Shown: piece after piece, positions 33,236-41,009 of the stretch
Numbering within the stretch: position 1 is the first letter of the stretch
How the letters are laid out: each line of letters begins with the position of its first letter
Source: Amycolatopsis sp. DSM 110486
GTDB taxonomy: Bacteria > Actinomycetota > Actinomycetes > Mycobacteriales > Pseudonocardiaceae
Direction of reading: 5' to 3'
Assembly (NCBI RefSeq): GCF_019468465.1
Contig: NZ_CP080519.1
Span: forward strand, 6,441,001 to 6,505,000
DNA: 64,000 bases
Notes under the pieces: model-generated
Told to the model about the DNA's origin: nothing
Database searches by the model: none
The model's input: the letters and a program-made list of their open reading frames with translations, nothing else
Program-made: the position numbers and the translations under genes

Positions 33236-33930
33236 GTGGTCCGCCGGGGCGTCGCCAGGGCGGACGAATCGGGTGCGGAGGCTTGATCAGGACGGCTTTC
33301 GCGGCAGTGCTGGTCGGAGCTTCGTCGTGGCGGGAACCGCGTCTGTGTGCTGACCGAACTCCTGCGATCGGATCCGATGCGCCCGGACTGCGTCGTCCGC
33401 CGGCCGCTTGTCCGGCGGGGTGATTCGGGCGCGGCGGCTTGAACCGGCCGGAAGGCTGGTCGAACTTCGCCGGGGCAGGCCGGCGGAGCGCGAGGACCGC
33501 GTGTGTGGGCAGGCGTGGCTTGACCGGAGGTCAGCGGCCGCTTGCGGCCGGAGCGCCGGTTGGGGTTGTGCGGCCGGTCCGGTGGCGTGATCGGTGCCGG
33601 CCGGCCGAACCTTCCGGCCGCTCGGTTGGCCCGACCACCACTCCGGCCGCCGCGGCTTGTATCCGGCCGGAGTGGTGGTCGGGCGGCCGGTCCGACAGCA
33701 CGACCCCGGAGGCCACCGAGTGGCCCGCCGGCGCGTCGCCGGGGCGGACGAATCGGGCGCGGAGGCTTGAGCAGGCCGGCAGTGCTGGTCGCGGCTTCGG
33801 CGGTCGGGCCGAGGGGGTCGGGGAACAATGGGAGCCGACCCGGCGAGGGCGGAACGCAGCTCGGCGACCGGATCCGAAGGGCTGGGCGCGCAGGCCGCCG
33901 AGTGGCCCGCCGGCTGCTCGCCGCCCGCGA
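33236..33930. repeat. Degenerate direct-repeat cluster upstream of hemE
   Basis: The 850 bases between DUF3000 and hemE hold no supported gene. Instead a unit around GGGCGGACGAATCGGG, GCGGAGGCTTGA and GTGCTGGTCG recurs: copy A about 33236-33324, copy B about 33410-33469 (more diverged), copy C about 33720-33800, and a partial copy D about 33892-33925 (GGCCGCCGAGTGGCCCGCCG only). Copies A and B are also followed by related ACCGCGT(C/G)TGTG segments, so the ancestral unit may be near 170 bases. Origin unknown. Confidence 0.65.
33629..33684. repeat. Perfect 21-bp inverted repeat within the hemE upstream repeat cluster
   Basis: Arms at 33629-33649 (starting GCCCGACCACCACTCC) and 33664-33684 (ending GGAGTGGTGGTCGGGC) are exact reverse complements around a 14-base loop. 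Much more stable than the other hairpins here, but without a T-tract and 330 bases from the nearest start codon, so it is not an obvious terminator or operator. Confidence 0.8.
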
Positions 33931-34013
33931 GCAACGGAGGACGAACGCGCCCGAACCCGGCGCTGGGGCCGCCCCGCCCAGGCGGGAGCACCAGGCGTGG
34001 GACGATGGGCTTC

Positions 34014-35102
34014 GTGCCTGAGCTTTCGTCTGTGTCTGAGTCCTTCGCGTCCGAAACCGCCCCGGCTGTCGCCGCGCGGCGTGTGCTGGCGGAGTCGCCG
34101 TTCCTGGCCGCGGCGCGCGGGGAGAAGCCCGTGCGCACGCCCGTGTGGTTCATGCGCCAGGCCGGGCGGTCGCTGCCGGAGTACCGGAAGCTGCGCGAGG
34201 GCGTCGCGATGCTCGACGCGTGCTTCGACCCTGAGATGCTCGCCGAGATCACGCTGCAGCCGGTGCGCCGGCACGGCGTGGACGCGGCGATCCTGTTCAG
34301 CGACATCGTCGTACCGCTGAAGGCCGCGGGCCTGGACATCGACATCGTGCCCGGCACGGGGCCCGTGGTGGCCGAGCCGGTGCGCGACCGCAAAGCCGTG
34401 CGGGGGATTCCGCTGCTGGAGACCGAGCAGGTCGAGCGTGTGGCCGAGGGCGTGGGCCTGCTGGTGGAACGCCTGGGCGACACGCCGTTGATCGGCTTCG
34501 CCGGCGCGCCGTTCACGCTGGCCAGCTACCTGATCGAGGGCGGCCCGAGCCGCAACCACGAGCACACCAAGGCGCTCATGCACGCCGAACCCGAGCTCTG
34601 GCACGAGCTCGCCGGCCGCCTCGCCGACATCGCGCTCACGTTTCTCCGTGCGCAGCTCGACGCGGGCGCCGACGCCATCCAGTTGTTCGACTCGTGGGCC
34701 GGCGCGCTGTCCGAGCGCGACTACCGCGAGTTCGTCCAGCCGCACTCGGCGAAGGTGCTGGCCGGCGTCGCGGGCTACGGCGTGCCGCGGATCCACTTCG
34801 GCGTCGGCACGGGCGAGCTGCTCGTGGCGATGCGCGACGCGGGCGCCGACGTCGTCGGGGTCGACTGGCGCGTGCCGCTCGACGAGGCCGTGCGCCGGCT
34901 CGGCGGCACGGCCGTGGTGCAGGGCAACCTCGACCCGGCGCTGCTCTACGCGGGCTGGCCGGTGATCGAGGCCGAGGTCCGCCGGATCGTCGACGAGGGC
35001 CGCGCGGCCGACGGGCACATCTTCAACCTCGGCCACGGCGTGCTGCCGAGCGTCGAGCCCGAGGTCCTCACCCGCGTCGCAGAGCTGGTGCACTCGCTGT
35101 GA
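34014..35102 (+). CDS. hemE: Uroporphyrinogen III decarboxylase
   Basis: 362 residues. Signature [20 protein letters not shown] near the N-terminus (Arg and Asp clamp), [13 protein letters not shown], and the second signature [17 protein letters not shown]. Removes four carboxyls from uroporphyrinogen III to give coproporphyrinogen III. Start: GTG at 34014 with GACGAT seven bases upstream fits the leaderless pattern seen elsewhere in the window; in-frame ATG at 34005 is the alternative. The stop overlaps hemY by four bases. Confidence 0.95.
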
Positions 35103-36508
35103 AGCACGTCGCCGTCGTCGGCGGCGGCATCTCCGGCCTGACCGCGGCCTACCGCCTGCGGACGCTGCTCGGCGACGCCGTCGCGATCACCGTCTTCGAA
35201 GCCGCCCCCGCAGTCGGCGGCAAGCTCCGCACGGCCGAGGTCGGCGGCGTGCCCTACGACGTCGGCGCCGAAGCCTTCCTCGCCCGCCGGCCCGAGGTCA
35301 CGGCGCTGGTCGCCGAGGTCGGGCTGGGCGAGCACCTGGTCCACCCCACGAAGGCGCGCGCCAAGATCCACGCCGGCGGCACCGTCACGGGCCTCCCGCC
35401 CGGCACGGTCATGGGCGTGCCCGCCTCCGCCGACGCCGTGGCCGGCGTGCTCTCGGAAGACGGCCGCCTCGCCGTCGAGAAGGAACGCTCCCTCGGCCCC
35501 GTCGAGCTCACCGCCGCCGACGTGGCCCTCGGCCCGCTGCTGCGCACCCGCTTCGGCGACGAGCTCGTCGACCGGCTCGTCGACCCGCTGCTCGGCGGTG
35601 TCTACGCGGGCGGCGCCGACGGCCTCGGCCTGCGCGCGACCATGCCCGGCCTGGCCAAGGCCGTCGCCGAGGGCGCCGGGTCGCTCACCGACGCCGCGGC
35701 CGCCCTGCTGCCGAAGACCCCCGGCATCGCGCCCGTGTTCGGCACGCTGACCGGCGGCCTGACCACACTCCTGGACCGCCTGCGCGAGCTGTCCCGCGCG
35801 ACCGTGCGCACTTCCGCCACCGTCCGCGCCCTGACCCGCACCGCGAACGGCTGGCGCCTCGACGTGGGCGCCGCCGCCCCGGCCCACGCTCCCGAGGACA
35901 CCCCGGTGGACGTCGACGCCGTCGTGCTCGCCGTGCCCGCCCCCGCCGCGCGCAAGCTGCTCGCCGACCTCGTCCCGGCCGCGTCCCAGGCGTTCGGCGA
36001 GGTCGAGCTGGCGTCGATGGCCGTGGTCGCCCTCGCGCTGCCGCCCGGCACCGACCTGCCCGACGCGTCGGGGATCCTCATCGGCGCAGGCGAGAAGGAC
36101 GCCGAGGGCGTGCCCTACGCGTCGAAGGCCTTCACTTTCTCCGCCAACAAGTGGGCCCACTACGGCGCCGCCGGCCCGGTGCTCGTCCGCGGCTCCGTCG
36201 GCCGTTTCCGCGAGCCGGGCGCGCTGAACGGCGACGACGAAGCCCTGGTGCACGCCGTCCGCGACGACCTCGCCCGCCTCACCGGCGTCACCGCCGCGCC
36301 GCTCGACACGCTGGTCACCCGCTGGGGCGGCGGCCTGCCGCAGTACGGCGCCGGGCACCTCGAGCGCGTGACGCGCATCGAAACCGCCGTCAACGAGCTC
36401 CCGGGCCTGGCCGTCGCGGGCGCGACGCTGCACGGCGTCGGGCTGCCGGCGTGCGTCGCCACCGCCGACGCCGCCGCGAAGCGGATCGCGGCGAGCTTCA
36501 CAGTGTGA
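35099..36508 (+). CDS. hemY: Coproporphyrinogen III / protoporphyrinogen oxidase
   Basis: 469 residues. FAD motif [17 protein letters not shown], then [17 protein letters not shown], and the C-terminal FAD-contacting region [20 protein letters not shown]. Oxidises the porphyrinogen ring by six electrons. Because hemQ follows, the coproporphyrin-dependent route is likely, so the physiological product is coproporphyrin III (CgoX activity). GTG start overlaps the hemE stop (GTGA). Confidence 0.93.
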
Positions 36509-36559
36509 CGTGACGGAGGCGCTTGGCGCCCGAATGCCGCGCGGTGCGAGGATGGAGCC

Positions 36560-37252
36560 ATGGCGCGGCTGAACTACAACGAGCTCAACGACAGCATCCG
36601 CTACACCGCCTGGTCGGTCTTCCGGGTCGAGCCCGGCCGCCTCGGCGAGGACCGCGGGACCGCGGGGCAGGAGACGGCGGAGTTCCTCGACGGGCTCGCC
36701 GACAAGGGCGTGGTGGTGCGCGGCGTCTACGACCTGTCCGTGCTCCGGGCCGACGCCGACTACATGGTCTGGTGGCACGCCGAGGAGATCGAGCAGGTCC
36801 AGGCCGCCTACAACGGCTTCCGGCGCACGCCGCTGGGCCGCGCGTCGACCCCGGTGTGGAGCCAGGTCGCGCTGCACCGCCCGGCGGAGTTCAACAAGAG
36901 CCACATCCCGGCGTTCCTCGCCGGCGAGGAAGCGCGCAAGTACATCTGCGTGTACCCGTTCGTCCGCTCCTACGAGTGGTACCTGCTGCCGGACGAGGAG
37001 CGGCGCAAGATGCTCGCCGACCACGGCAAGGAAGCCCGTGACTACCCGGACGTGCGCGCCAACACCGTGGCGTCGTTCGCGCTCGGCGATTACGAGTGGA
37101 TCCTCGCGTTCGAGGCCGACGAGCTGCACCGCATCGTCGACCTGATGCGCCACCTGCGCGCGACGGAGGCCCGTCGCCACGTGCGCGAGGAGATCCCGTT
37201 CTACACCGGCACGCGCGTGGCGCCCGCCGAGCTCGTCGCGGCACTGCCGTAA
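36560..37252 (+). CDS. hemQ: Coproheme decarboxylase, HemQ (chlorite dismutase family)
   Basis: 230 residues. Actinobacterial Hem[21 protein letters not shown], then [17 protein letters not shown] containing the Tyr that drives decarboxylation, and [15 protein letters not shown] with the proximal heme His. Converts coproheme to heme b, the last step of the coproporphyrin-dependent pathway. 52 bases after hemY; ATG with GAGGAT six bases upstream, so possibly its own leaderless transcript. Ferrochelatase (hemH/cpfC) is not in the window. Confidence 0.94.
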
Positions 37253-37257
37253 CCGCC

Positions 37258-38634
37258 GTGCAGGACGTGCTGGCCGGGGTGTGGCAGACGCTCACCGGAG
37301 AATCCCTCCCGGCCGTGTCCTTGACCGGCGACGAATCCTTGCTGCCCGGCACTTTCCGGGTCGAGGCCGCCGCGACGGCGGGCATCGCGGCCGCCACGCT
37401 CGCCGCAGGTGAGCTGCTGCGCCTGCGCGGCATCGACCCCGGCACGGTGGGCGCCGACACGCGCCACGCCGCGGCCGCCGTGCGCAGCGAAGCCTTCGTG
37501 CGCGTGAACGGCGAGCTGCCTCCGAGCCCGTGGGGTCCGATCGCCGGCGACTACCTCGCGTCCGACGGCTGGGTCAAGCTCCACGCGAACTACCCGCGCC
37601 ACGAGGCCGCCGTGTGCTGGTCGCTCGGCGTGCCCGCGCAGCGCGAGTCCGTCGCGAAGACCGTGGCCGCCAAGACGGCCGCCGAGGTCGAGTCCGCCGT
37701 GGTGACAGCGGGCGGCGCGGCCGCGCTCATGCGTTCGCGCGACGAGTGGCTCGCGCACCCGCAGGGCCAGGCCGTCGCAGGCCTGCCGCTCGCCGAGATC
37801 CGGCAGATCGGCGACGCGCCGAAGAACACGCTGTTCGACTCCGACCGGCCGCTGGGCGGGGTCCGGGTGCTGGAGCTGACGCACGTGCTCGCCGGGCCCG
37901 TCGCCGGTCGCGTGCTCGCGGCCCACGGCGCGAACGTGCTGCACGTCGGCGCCGCGCACCTGCCGCGCATCCCCGCGCTCACGATGGACACCGGCCACGG
38001 CAAGCGTTCGGGGTTCGTCGCGCTCGACACCGAGGGCGGCCGCGCGCGGCTGAAGAAGCTCATCGCGCGCGCCGACGTGGTGCTGCAGTCGTTCCGCCCC
38101 GGCGCGCTGGAGCGAATCGGATTCGGTCCGGAGGTGTTGGCCGAGCTGAGGCCGGGTCTCGTCACGGTCGACCTGTCGGCCTACGGCTGGGCCGGCCCGT
38201 GGGCCCGCCGTCGCGGGTTCGACAGCCTGGTGCAGATGGCGTCGGGCATCGCCGAGGAAGGCGCTCGCGTCGCCGGCACAGACCGGCCGACGCCGCTGCC
38301 CGCGCAGGCGCTCGACCACACCACGGGCTGGCTCGCGGCCGCGGCGATCATGACGGCGGTGCGCCGCACGGTCGTCGAGGGTGGCAGCTGGAACGTGCGG
38401 TTGTCGCTCGCGGGAACGGGCCGGTGGCTGGATTCGCTGGGGCGCAAGGAGTCGGCTGTGTCCAGTGTGGACTCAGCGGATTACGGCGACCTCGTCGAAG
38501 AAGTCGACAGCGACTTCGGCAAGCTCACCCGCGTGAAGATGGCGGGCGACCTGCCGGGCGCCCAGCCGCACTGGGACCACGCGTCACACCTGCCCGGAGC
38601 CGACAGCGCGGTGTGGCACCCGGTCAGCTCCTGA
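37258..38634 (+). CDS. CoA-transferase family III (CaiB/BaiF-like) protein
   Basis: 458 residues. The second half holds the family III fold (GVRVLELTHVLAGPVAGRVL; LKKLIARADVVLQSFRPGAL; LVTVDLSAYGWAGPWA), while the first ~190 residues are a degenerate copy of the same fold. The nucleophilic Asp usually seen after ...HGKRS... cannot be placed with certainty, so activity is unproven. GTG start six bases after the hemQ stop region, so probably co-transcribed with it. Its stop overlaps the convergent gene by 11 bases. Confidence 0.72.
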   Translation: MQDVLAGVWQTLTGESLPAVSLTGDESLLPGTFRVEAAATAGIAAATLAAGELLRLRGIDPGTVGADTRHAAAAVRSEAFVRVNGELPPSPWGPIAGDYLASDGWVKLHANYPRHEAAVCWSLGVPAQRESVAKTVAAKTAAEVESAVVTAGGAAALMRSRDEWLAHPQGQAVAGLPLAEIRQIGDAPKNTLFDSDRPLGGVRVLELTHVLAGPVAGRVLAAHGANVLHVGAAHLPRIPALTMDTGHGKRSGFVALDTEGGRARLKKLIARADVVLQSFRPGALERIGFGPEVLAELRPGLVTVDLSAYGWAGPWARRRGFDSLVQMASGIAEEGARVAGTDRPTPLPAQALDHTTGWLAAAAIMTAVRRTVVEGGSWNVRLSLAGTGRWLDSLGRKESAVSSVDSADYGDLVEEVDSDFGKLTRVKMAGDLPGAQPHWDHASHLPGADSAVWHPVSS

Positions 38635-38944
38635 ACCAGCGCCGCCGCTTCGCGGGTTCTCGGGCGGCGACCCAGGCCGCGAACGCGTCGGCGTACTCGC
38701 GCGCCCGGATCGCGTCGGTTTTCGGGTGCGCGCCGGCGTAGGCGTCGAAGAGCGGGCCGAAGCGCTCGCCCAGGCTTTCGGCCAGGTCGGGGCGCAGATA
38801 CGCTATGAGCCGGCGGCGTTTGGTGAGCAGGACGTCGGCTTCGACGCGCAGCCGGTCCGGCGCGAAACCCGGCGGGGGCGGGGCGCCGGTGAGCAACGCG
38901 TCGAGCAGCGCGGCCTGCCGAGCGGCGAGCTCCTCGCGGCTCAC
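38624..38944 (-). CDS. Small SCO6045-like partner protein of the DUF692 enzyme
   Basis: 106 residues. VLLTKRRRLIAYLRPDLAES then LGERFGPLFDAYAGAHP recall the small proteins encoded beside DUF692 enzymes, in Streptomyces the SCO6045 family, and loosely the N-terminal DNA-binding-like domain of other MNIO partner proteins. MNIO enzymes normally need a partner that recruits the substrate peptide. GTG start overlaps the DUF692 stop (GTGA), so the two are made together. Role inferred from context. Confidence 0.7.
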   Translation of the reverse strand: MSREELAARQAALLDALLTGAPPPPGFAPDRLRVEADVLLTKRRRLIAYLRPDLAESLGERFGPLFDAYAGAHPKTDAIRAREYADAFAAWVAAREPAKRRRWFRS

Positions 38945-39744
38945 GCCGTCACCGTCGCGCGCAATGCGGCGAGCTCCGCGGCCAGCTCGGTGTCGGTGGG
39001 GTAGTCGTCGTCGCGTTCCAGCAGCACGCCCGGCGGGTCGGTGCGGCGGCGCAGCTCGGCGAGCAGGTCGAGCACCTCGGGCAGCACCGGGTGCGCGTGC
39101 GTGTCGTGGTAGACGCCGTCGCGCTCGACGCCGCCCGCCATGTGCACGTAGGCCAGGCGTTCCCAGGGAATCCCGTCGAGGAACGCCACCGGGTCGGTGC
39201 CGACGTTGCGCGCGTTGGCATACAGGTTCGCCACGTCGATGATCAGCAGGCACCCCGTGCGCTCGGTCAGCTCGGCGAGGAACTGCTCCTCCGACAACGT
39301 GTTCTCCGGCCACTGGAGCACGGCCGCGATGTTCTCCAGTGCCAAGGGGACGTCCACAATGGACTGGGCGAGGCGGACGTTGGCCACGAGCACGTCGAGC
39401 GCTTCGCGCGTGCGGGGTAGCGGCATGAGGTGCCCGGAGTCGAGCCCGCCCGCGCGGACGAAGCACACGTGGTCGCTCGCGAGCGGCGCGTCGAGCGCCC
39501 GGGCCAGCTCGGCGAGGTGCTCGACGCGCTTCGTATCCAGCGGCTCCGCCCCGCCGAGCGAGAGCGACACGGCGTGCGGCAGCACGGGCAGGCCGCGTTC
39601 CCGCAACGCCAGCAGGCTCTCGGGCAGGTGCGGCGCGTGAAGGTTCTCGGCGACGACCTCGACCCAGTCGACGCCCGGCAGCCGCGCGATCGACAGGTCC
39701 AGCTCGGCCCGCCAGCCGATGCCGACGCCCAGCCGGTCAACCAC
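38941..39744 (-). CDS. DUF692-family multinuclear iron oxidative enzyme (MNIO)
   Basis: 267 residues, typical family size. TIM-barrel DUF692 relatives (MbnB, TglH) bind two or three irons and oxidise cysteine-containing peptides. Candidate ligands are visible: LPHAVSLSLGG, ASDHVCFV, LENIAAVLQW, LIIDVANLYANARN, YVHMAGG and DTHAHPV. GTG at 39744 overlaps the end of the membrane-protein gene by eight bases; the longer open frame to 39879 is a shadow of that gene's Cys-rich tail. Neighbours with Cys-repeat tails are the obvious substrates. Confidence 0.85.
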   Translation of the reverse strand: MVDRLGVGIGWRAELDLSIARLPGVDWVEVVAENLHAPHLPESLLALRERGLPVLPHAVSLSLGGAEPLDTKRVEHLAELARALDAPLASDHVCFVRAGGLDSGHLMPLPRTREALDVLVANVRLAQSIVDVPLALENIAAVLQWPENTLSEEQFLAELTERTGCLLIIDVANLYANARNVGTDPVAFLDGIPWERLAYVHMAGGVERDGVYHDTHAHPVLPEVLDLLAELRRRTDPPGVLLERDDDYPTDTELAAELAALRATVTA

Positions 39745-40672
39745 CGCAACCCCCGCCACCGCATGAGGAACCACTGCTGCACGAGGAACCACTGCTGCAC
39801 GAGGAACCACCGCTGCACGAAGACCCGCTGCTGCAGGAGGACGAGGTGCTGCACGACGAACCACCGCTCGACGAGCCACCGCCGGACCCGGCGAACGGCT
39901 GGAACGGCGGGATCAGCGCCGCACTCAGCTCGTCGTCCGGATACATCGCGAGCCCGCCCAGCGCCACGGCGCCGGCCGCTCCGGCGAGCAGCAAGGCCGG
40001 CCGCACCGCACCCTGCGTGCGGCTCGAGAACCGGGCGTGCGTCAGAGCCCCCTGGCCCCTCGGCGTGATCCCCACGCGCTTGCGGCCGCGCACGACGGAG
40101 GCGACCACCGTCAGCACGAGGGCCACCACGAGCAGCAGGAAGAGCCAGCCGACAGGCCGGCCGTGCGACGCACCCGTCACGAACCGCACGGCGCCGATCG
40201 CCAGGAGAACCAGGAAGGCCAGCAAGATCGTGGTGTGGAACGGACGCGCTTCGCTGCCGGAGGTGAGCAGGCCGGCGCGCTGCATCTCGGCCTCGAGGTC
40301 GCTCATCGCCTTCGACCGGGCGGCCTTGGCCCGCAGGCTGCGCGTGGTACCGCCCTTGGCACCCTTGGCGCCTTCGTGCACCGAGCGTTCGATCTTGTGC
40401 CACGGGTGTTTCCCCGCGGCCGTCACGAGCCCTTCGCTGTTCACGCGCAGCAGGCCGCGGTCCACCAGCGCCGCGATCGCCGTGTCGGCCACGCGCTCGG
40501 GCCCGCCGGCGAGGTACGCGAGGTGGTAGACGTCCGGCAGTTCACCGGTGTGCTCGACCGCCCGCGTGCGCGCGACGCGCGGCCACACCACCTGCACCGC
40601 GAGCACGAGAGCCAGCGCTATTCCGTACCACGCCAGGAACTGCGGTCCTGAAATCCCCCAGGTTTCGTCCAC
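39737..40672 (-). CDS. TIGR04222-type membrane protein with Cys-repeat tail
   Basis: 311 residues. Transmembrane segment ~10-28, a cytoplasmic helical part (GGPERVADTAIAALVDRGLL), two more transmembrane segments (~150-168, ~176-196) and one near 226-245. The last ~49 residues are only Ser, Gly, Thr and Cys, with cysteines at about 274, 280, 286, 292, 298, 304 and 309. GTG start with AGGGAGG upstream. The even spacing and the adjacent DUF692 enzyme suggest that this tail is modified or metal-loaded. Without the tail the fold matches the TIGR04222 membrane family, whose function is unknown. Confidence 0.78.
   Translation of the reverse strand: MDETWGISGPQFLAWYGIALALVLAVQVVWPRVARTRAVEHTGELPDVYHLAYLAGGPERVADTAIAALVDRGLLRVNSEGLVTAAGKHPWHKIERSVHEGAKGAKGGTTRSLRAKAARSKAMSDLEAEMQRAGLLTSGSEARPFHTTILLAFLVLLAIGAVRFVTGASHGRPVGWLFLLLVVALVLTVVASVVRGRKRVGITPRGQGALTHARFSSRTQGAVRPALLLAGAAGAVALGGLAMYPDDELSAALIPPFQPFAGSGGGSSSGGSSCSTSSSCSSGSSCSGGSSCSSGSSCSSGSSCGGGGCGG
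39761..39853 (-). repeat. 18-bp tandem repeat encoding the Cys hexads
   Basis: On the plus strand the pattern CCACTGCTGCACGAGGAA and close variants repeats about five times. On the coding strand each unit gives SSGSSC-like hexapeptides. Repeat-unit length equals one hexad, so the tail probably grew by duplication. Confidence 0.75.
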
Positions 40673-40769
40673 GGTGTGCCTCCCTCACCCTCGCGATCGC
40701 CGGACCCTACCGACCCGGTTCACCGGGTGGGTCGGCACAACTGACGCCGTCCGCGGCGCCTCGGTTCCG

Positions 40770-41009
40770 TCAACAGCTGCCGGAACCGCCGCCGCACCCC
40801 GAGCCGCCACCGCAGCTTGAGCCGAGGTAAAGCCTGCCACCGCCGAGACGGGCGGGCCGGTAACCGATCTGAAGGGGCTTGGGTTTCCGGCCGGGCGGAG
40901 GAGACGTTCCGTGGCGCGGCCTGCCGCCGGCTCGCGGCTCGAGAACAGCGGAGGCCGCGCACCTGGGCACGCCGATCACAGTCCCGGCGATGGTGGCGAT
41001 GAGTGTCAT
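40770..41009 (-). CDS. Small Cys-tailed protein, candidate precursor peptide
   Basis: 79 residues. Hydrophobic N-terminus (MTLIATIAGTVIGVP), a Pro/Arg-rich middle, and a C-terminal tail LGSSCGGGSGCGGGSGSC with cysteines at about 66, 72 and 79, the last being the final residue. A strong ribosome site (GGGGAGG, five bases before ATG) supports translation, and it follows the msrB terminator, so it likely has its own promoter and leads the operon. The tail mimics that of the downstream membrane protein. No family recognised; precursor role is inference. Confidence 0.6.
   Translation of the reverse strand: MTLIATIAGTVIGVPRCAASAVLEPRAGGRPRHGTSPPPGRKPKPLQIGYRPARLGGGRLYLGSSCGGGSGCGGGSGSC

Follow-up and report, generated by a model that had tools for sequence, protein, structure and literature searches.

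An enzyme of the MNIO (DUF692) family and a small partner protein encoded in Amycolatopsis sp. DSM 110486 probably act in the cytosol on the cysteine-bearing tail of a TIGR04222 membrane protein, whose gene directly precedes theirs. The three genes lie in a stretch of 64,000 nucleotides (contig NZ_CP080519.1, positions 6,441,001 to 6,505,000), here called the window. In this reading, to which we give about two chances in three, the tail is a portable module and would carry membrane-tethered groups with a metal or redox role. Clusters of this type have already been published (Antoine et al., 2025; PMC12452194), so that the system is not new in kind. Gene order, gene overlaps, iron ligands, the periodicity of the tail, its co-occurrence with the enzyme, the exchange of one carrier protein for another and gene fusions are direct results of the computation.

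The cluster lies on the minus strand in the order msrB, a 79-residue open reading frame (ORF), the TIGR04222 gene, the MNIO gene and the partner gene. The last three, and the tail, are placed as follows.

39737..40672, minus strand: TIGR04222 membrane protein, candidate substrate, 311 residues (TIGR04222.1, 146.3 bits, cut-off 43)
39740..39889, minus strand: C-terminal Ser/Gly tail of that protein, last 50 residues, with 7 Cys and the end CGG
38941..39744, minus strand: MNIO (DUF692) enzyme, 267 residues (PF05114, 279.9 bits, cut-off 25)
38624..38944, minus strand: small helical partner, 106 residues, PME-type 2-like

The stop of the TIGR04222 gene and the start of the MNIO gene share 8 bases (39744-39737), and the MNIO stop and the partner start share 4 (38944-38941). 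An earlier note, made from the letters of the window, had given this order with its coordinates and overlaps and had named a TIGR04222-like membrane protein and a DUF692 enzyme, all of which was confirmed. The MNIO of the cluster is the sole match to PF05114 in the genome. A test for DUF2063 gave no Pfam match for the partner or for the scanned neighbours.

The TIGR04222 protein has seven Cys, all within the tail, at spacings of 6, 6, 6, 6, 6 and 5, evenly placed as the note had read them. The same design recurs in a set of 171 unique Cys tails, taken from related loci and including that of the window, which holds 705 Cys-Cys gaps. A gap of 6 accounts for 227 of these (32%, compared with 6% after shuffling) and is above chance, since shuffled tails rarely show it; gaps of 1-2 account for 2 (0.3%, compared with 19.5% after shuffling). 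The end CGG is found in 99 of the 171 tails, and the window tail conforms.

The central evidence is the co-variation of the tail with the enzyme. Profile searches of 394 genomes of the class found TIGR04222 in at least 135 genomes and PF05114 in 94, with seven TIGR04222 candidates scored per genome. The sample comprised the 127 TIGR04222 places of at least 43 bits among the matches listed, whose surroundings were fetched; the window's own place, places below 43 bits, two short fragments of a broken MNIO in one genome (G277) and one MNIO place without a fetched locus (G330) were left out. A Cys tail was defined by at least three Cys in the last 60 residues together with at least 40% Gly, Ser or Cys, and a position directly upstream of an MNIO by a distance within 3 kb on the same strand. 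TIGR04222 proteins encoded directly upstream of an MNIO had a Cys tail in 41 of 43 cases, spread over 21 genera. When the MNIO lay upstream of the TIGR04222 gene the figure was 15 of 33, all of them in one genus (g20), which is called Streptomyces-like here because named loci of the same layout belong to Streptomyces and a database carrier comes from Streptomyces spinoverrucosus. With an MNIO elsewhere in the genome it was 7 of 25, and with no MNIO found in the genome 2 of 26 (L139 and L172). L139 has an adjacent MNIO ORF that the genome search did not report, and the tail of L172 looks like a reading artefact. The earlier note had proposed this comparison, and the tails indeed track the MNIO across genera (41/43 versus 2/26).

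When Gly/Ser-rich tails alone were considered, Cys was present in 56 of 56 linked to an MNIO, in 7 of 12 with an unlinked MNIO and, L139 being set aside, in 1 of 8 without an MNIO (L172), so that composition is removed as the cause of the link. Of the two exceptions among the upstream genes, one is the second copy in L152, a locus with a Cys-rich ORF in a different frame; the other, L169, is weighed below. Members of genus g72 (L142, L148, L178, L216, L225) encode a Cys-tailed TIGR04222 protein far from the MNIO, which sits elsewhere. The co-variation thus gives good support to the tail as a candidate substrate.

The tail is also found on other proteins. Main-clade MNIO loci were defined by more than 300 bits with an in-house MNIO profile, and 89 were collected, including loci without TIGR04222. 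Outside g20 a Cys tail lay within 4 kb in 50 of 54 loci, on a TIGR04222 protein in 39 (window included) and on a different protein in 11. Nine loci encode a single-helix carrier of 83-119 residues with an Arg-rich segment and a tail of Cys, Gly and Ser that in most cases also contains His; its gene stands between MNIO and partner in eight of the nine, and its start codon lies at the MNIO end or at most about 25 bases from it in seven. In two loci a larger protein with a similar Cys tail is encoded upstream of the MNIO. None of 17 further MNIO places below 300 bits has a Cys tail. Named loci of Pseudonocardiaceae have an upstream Cys tail in 59 of 63; the remaining four comprise one locus at a contig edge and three whose Gly-rich tails, with 2 Cys, fall just short of the threshold. 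One locus of the survey (L040), from a record labelled Rhodococcus rhodnii NRRL B-16535, has a layout almost exactly that of Kibdelosporangium records, and the name of the record may be wrong.

In g20 only 15 of 35 MNIO loci have a Cys tail nearby, and carriers encoded in trans were found there. A small-carrier profile had matches in 26 of the 394 genomes, including ten g20 genomes with unlinked copies. A second profile, built mainly from g20 carriers and applied to 80 chosen genomes, matched 30 of 37 g20 genomes and, of 43 genomes outside g20 that lack an MNIO, one (G200, without Cys). Where the MNIO locus of a g20 genome lacked a Cys-tailed TIGR04222 gene, an unlinked single-helix carrier was present in 18 of 20 (not in G435 and G450); 17 of the 18 have at least three Cys in the last 60 residues and one (G356) has 2. 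G435 has an unlinked Cys-tailed TIGR04222 protein. Among 199 g20 genomes, searched with fewer candidates scored per genome and with carriers counted regardless of Cys, 187 had an MNIO, and a carrier was present in 124 of the 187 versus 3 of the 12 without. For assemblies of at most 10 contigs the corresponding figures were 63 of 78 and 0 of 5. The MNIO-less g20 genomes contain seven TIGR04222 places over the cut-off, six of them without a Cys tail. The unlinked g20 carriers (L288-L293, L307-L334) are about 76-121 residues long, with a single helix, a WW motif and a Cys tail. They matched no Pfam or NCBIfam family beyond weak matches, for example to a glycine-rich family. Their genes share neighbours, including an aminotransferase-like gene (judged by eye), which give no pointer to function.

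By alignment, the window MNIO keeps all nine iron ligands of TglH, and each ligand is kept in 180-188 of 194 aligned rows, the remainder being mostly gaps; the loss of ligands that the earlier note had named as evidence against its proposal is therefore not seen. After MNIO_BufB, the nearest NCBIfam model was HvfB with 164 bits (cut-off 360); MbnB was far off at 42.3 bits (cut-off 325). For the partner, neither NCBIfam nor Pfam gave a family match up to E 0.1. The partner is predicted to be helical and, in structural comparison, matches a chain of the MbnABC complex best; neither NGO1945 (3dee) nor TglI was among the matches listed. Enzyme and partner are fused in one reading frame in 30 of 35 g20 loci, in 15 of 17 named Streptomyces loci and in 14 of 53 other loci of the class; L344 is an example of such a natural fusion in a single ORF. 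The helical prediction, the match to the MbnABC complex and the fusions in relatives bear out the assignment of the small protein as a partner of the MNIO. Passages of PMC4991794 report that SCO6045 rises 3-fold with hydrogen peroxide in the wild type of S. coelicolor, not in an hsr mutant, and that cysteine synthesis genes rise with it. This response is a weak lead for a putative orthologue of the partner, which the note had called SCO6045-like.

A sequence of events can be proposed. The overlapping TIGR04222, MNIO and partner genes would be expressed together, and the partner would present the tail to the MNIO in the cytosol. The enzyme would then oxidize the Cys of the tail, most plausibly as in bufferins, with thiooxazole-type rings. 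The flexible tail, tethered to the membrane, would in the end carry a series of modified Cys and bind metal or cope with redox stress. The Cys tail would serve as a portable substrate module, borne also by unrelated single-helix membrane proteins encoded near the enzyme or elsewhere in the genome.

The side of the membrane on which the tail lies bears on this scheme. In the structure model of the TIGR04222 protein (predicted local distance difference test, pLDDT, 81.5) helices span residues 9-36, 139-169 and 175-197. The charges of the window protein put the domain and the region after the helices inside, and in the single-helix carriers, 38 of 38, the positive charge comes after the helix. 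The charge pattern and the three-helix model make a cytosolic tail the likely arrangement, contrary to the published prediction of a periplasmic one. In the alternative of Antoine et al. (2025), which is rather unlikely, the modified tail points out of the cell; the protein would be a metal chelator of the bufferin kind, anchored in the membrane, with an N-terminal part that helps to bring the tail out. This alternative agrees with the topology prediction given for two TIGR04222 proteins in passages of PMC12452194, and the window protein has a weakly hydrophobic segment (residues 221-245) that might form a fourth membrane helix. The model, however, gives only short helices at 232-239 and 247-253 and three membrane helices, and this, like the charges of both kinds of carrier, argues against an outward tail. 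As to the fold, the TIGR04222 domain resembles one of the GOLPH3/Vps74 type (GPP34) split by a membrane hairpin, with weak support from sequence, and the TIGR04222 profile found low-complexity or unrelated matches among PDB sequences.

Two other explanations place the role of the enzyme elsewhere. The tail may work unmodified, as a plain Cys polymer for metal or disulfides, while the MNIO modifies another peptide; this is quite improbable. In its favor, the modified product is so far a deduction, and MNIO loci without a nearby Cys tail exist. Against it, Cys is nearly confined to genomes with an MNIO, among Gly/Ser-rich tails as well and also on a second, unrelated carrier, and a survey of 35 loci found no further neighbour that recurs. 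The idea that TIGR04222 is an accessory membrane protein and that the true substrates are small carriers such as the single-helix proteins is the least probable of those considered. It would account for the 13 of 35 g20 loci that keep an MNIO with only a Cys-less TIGR04222 protein, and for the TIGR04222 domains of MNIO-less genomes. The linked TIGR04222 protein is nevertheless itself Cys-tailed in 21 genera, and two to four TIGR04222 ORFs precede one MNIO in 40 of 63 named Pseudonocardiaceae loci, which fits poorly with an accessory role.

Several observations weigh against cytosolic modification of a portable tail, the reading preferred here. The earlier note had held that homologous clusters lacking any Cys tail would speak against its proposal. 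Such loci occur, in 20 of 35 cases in g20 (13 with a Cys-less TIGR04222 protein only, 7 with none, one of them at a contig edge) and in 4 of 54 others (one with a Cys-less TIGR04222 protein only, three with none); yet 18 of the 20 g20 genomes have the unlinked carrier. L169, in which a TIGR04222 protein without Cys adjoins the MNIO, is a counter-case, and a longer Cys-tailed membrane protein in G248 (L294), outside g20, where no MNIO was found, is a plain exception. The three carriers in MNIO-less g20 genomes belong to two drafts (740 and 1,420 contigs) and one genome listed at 6% contamination; the 1,420-contig draft (G568, no MNIO found) also has a TIGR04222 protein with three Cys near its end. 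The second carrier profile contains Cys and so favors Cys-bearing tails. Genomes of the same genus are not independent, so that genus counts outweigh p-values. In the enzyme, the second-shell Asn73 of TglH is replaced by Val, and the nearest NCBIfam model, MNIO_BufB, scores 202.9 bits, below its cut-off of 310. Finally, the modification of the tail, the structure of the product, its metal or redox role and the cytosolic side are points that we infer.

The remaining genes of the cluster are the following.

40770..41009, minus strand: 79-residue ORF, putative deletion relic of a tandem TIGR04222 copy
41568-41125, minus strand: msrB, ahead of the 79-residue ORF

The earlier note had counted two Cys-tailed proteins. 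The tail of the TIGR04222 protein stands; the 79-residue ORF exists, but it is best read, from sequence comparison, as the relic of a tandem TIGR04222 copy. No homologue was found in 79 other genomes of the same genus among the candidates listed, apart from one weak match across a stop codon, and none in a set of 5.8 billion proteins. A near relative (G010), whose cluster has about 90% DNA identity, has a longer TIGR04222 copy in the same slot, itself read in two frames; the 79-residue ORF corresponds to the start and the Cys tail of that copy, with some 600 bp of the body gone. Tandem copies are common: the 40 of 63 named Pseudonocardiaceae loci with several TIGR04222 ORFs upstream of one MNIO comprise 24 with two, 14 with three and 2 with four, while 20 loci have one and 3 none. 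This frequency and the match to G010 underlie the reading as a relic; the absence of homologues and the matching ends lead us to reject an independent second precursor.

Among Amycolatopsis loci the median identity to the window is 90% for the enzyme (33 loci), 60% for the partner (33) and 42% for the TIGR04222 protein (32), a figure that may be lowered by paralogue comparisons; it is 90% for MsrB (29) and HemQ (30). On these identities, the proteins around the tails change fast. The nearest named relatives of the MNIO locus come from Amycolatopsis.

On the plus strand, genes converge on the cluster (33828-38634). They include hemE-like and protoporphyrinogen-oxidase-like genes, a HemQ-like gene at 36560-37252 (these names judged from sequence) and a CoA-transferase family III gene that ends at 38634. 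In the flanks that were fetched, HemQ was present at 26 of 29 loci of family f19, at 14 of the 17 from named Streptomyces and at 33 of the 63 from named Pseudonocardiaceae; MsrB was present at 51 of those 63 and at the one locus of family f1. Neither was near any of 39 loci in seven other families, which rules out a general heme or MsrB link. The suggestion of the note that these neighbours point to redox or metal handling was thus not upheld, and the neighbourhood is local synteny. No conserved fourth gene of the operon emerged when the neighbours in 35 loci were clustered: the two groups that spanned every family look like the cluster itself read in reverse frame, the other groups span few families, and no neighbour pointed to a metal.

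Passages of Antoine et al. (2025; PMC12452194) describe TIGR04222 proteins beside MNIOs, mostly in Actinomycetota, with Cys in C-terminal Ser/Gly regions and PME-type 2 partners in at least 10% of the TIGR04222-MNIO clusters. More than a quarter of the TIGR04222 proteins lack such Cys, and a third of the genomes with TIGR04222 lack an MNIO. A subset of these proteins was proposed as MNIO substrates, with tails predicted to be periplasmic. The clusters in those passages share with the present one the Cys in a Ser/Gly tail, the MNIO, the small helical partner and the lack of a DUF2063 protein. Added here are the tandem copies, the relic, the tails borne in cis or in trans by unrelated single-helix proteins, and the likely cytosolic position of the tail. 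The passages hold no table of tails against MNIO, and the tight Cys-MNIO link, the carrier swap, the carriers in trans, the fusions and the cytosolic side are neither stated in them nor were found in a literature search. The small 'adjamnio-V' proteins described there may overlap with the single-helix carriers.

With bufferins (BufB/BufC) the cluster shares a Cys-rich product candidate and the nearest enzyme model; it differs in that bufferins have a DUF2063 (PME-type 1) partner and a small exported precursor, where a membrane protein is the carrier here. Methanobactin synthesis by MbnB/MbnC likewise uses an MNIO and a helical partner, but the MbnB cut-off is missed and the tail is on a large membrane protein. 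The TglH/TglI system of 3-thiaglutamate formation has the nine iron ligands in common with the window enzyme; TglHI, unlike the scheme above, works on the terminal Cys of a peptide scaffold, and Asn73 is not kept. A Gly-rich stretch with repeated Cys and Ser that are made into rings by enzymes is also found in the precursor of microcin B17. There the enzymes are different, the product is a released peptide toxin, and there is no membrane carrier.

MNIO enzymes are known from peptide pathways. If the tails are modified, MNIO chemistry extends to entire membrane proteins, with many repeated target sites. A broader proposal is tentative, and we put it at somewhat less than an even chance: that a single pair of MNIO and partner acts on a portable, C-terminal Cys/Gly/Ser tail borne by unrelated membrane proteins that face the cytosol, their genes lying in cis or in trans, and that most streptomycetes and many other actinobacteria in this way build a metal or redox polymer held at the membrane inside the cell, by modification of protein tails and not by a released-peptide pathway. 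If this is true, substrates encoded in trans would be missed by mining around the enzyme gene. With the Cys-MNIO link, the carrier swap, the carriers in trans, the fusions and a tail that is likely to be cytosolic, short substrates can be used to test the published proposal; the single-helix carriers, about 80-120 residues long in Streptomyces-type hosts, open the question to direct test. If correct, this would be the first function for a large group of TIGR04222 proteins.

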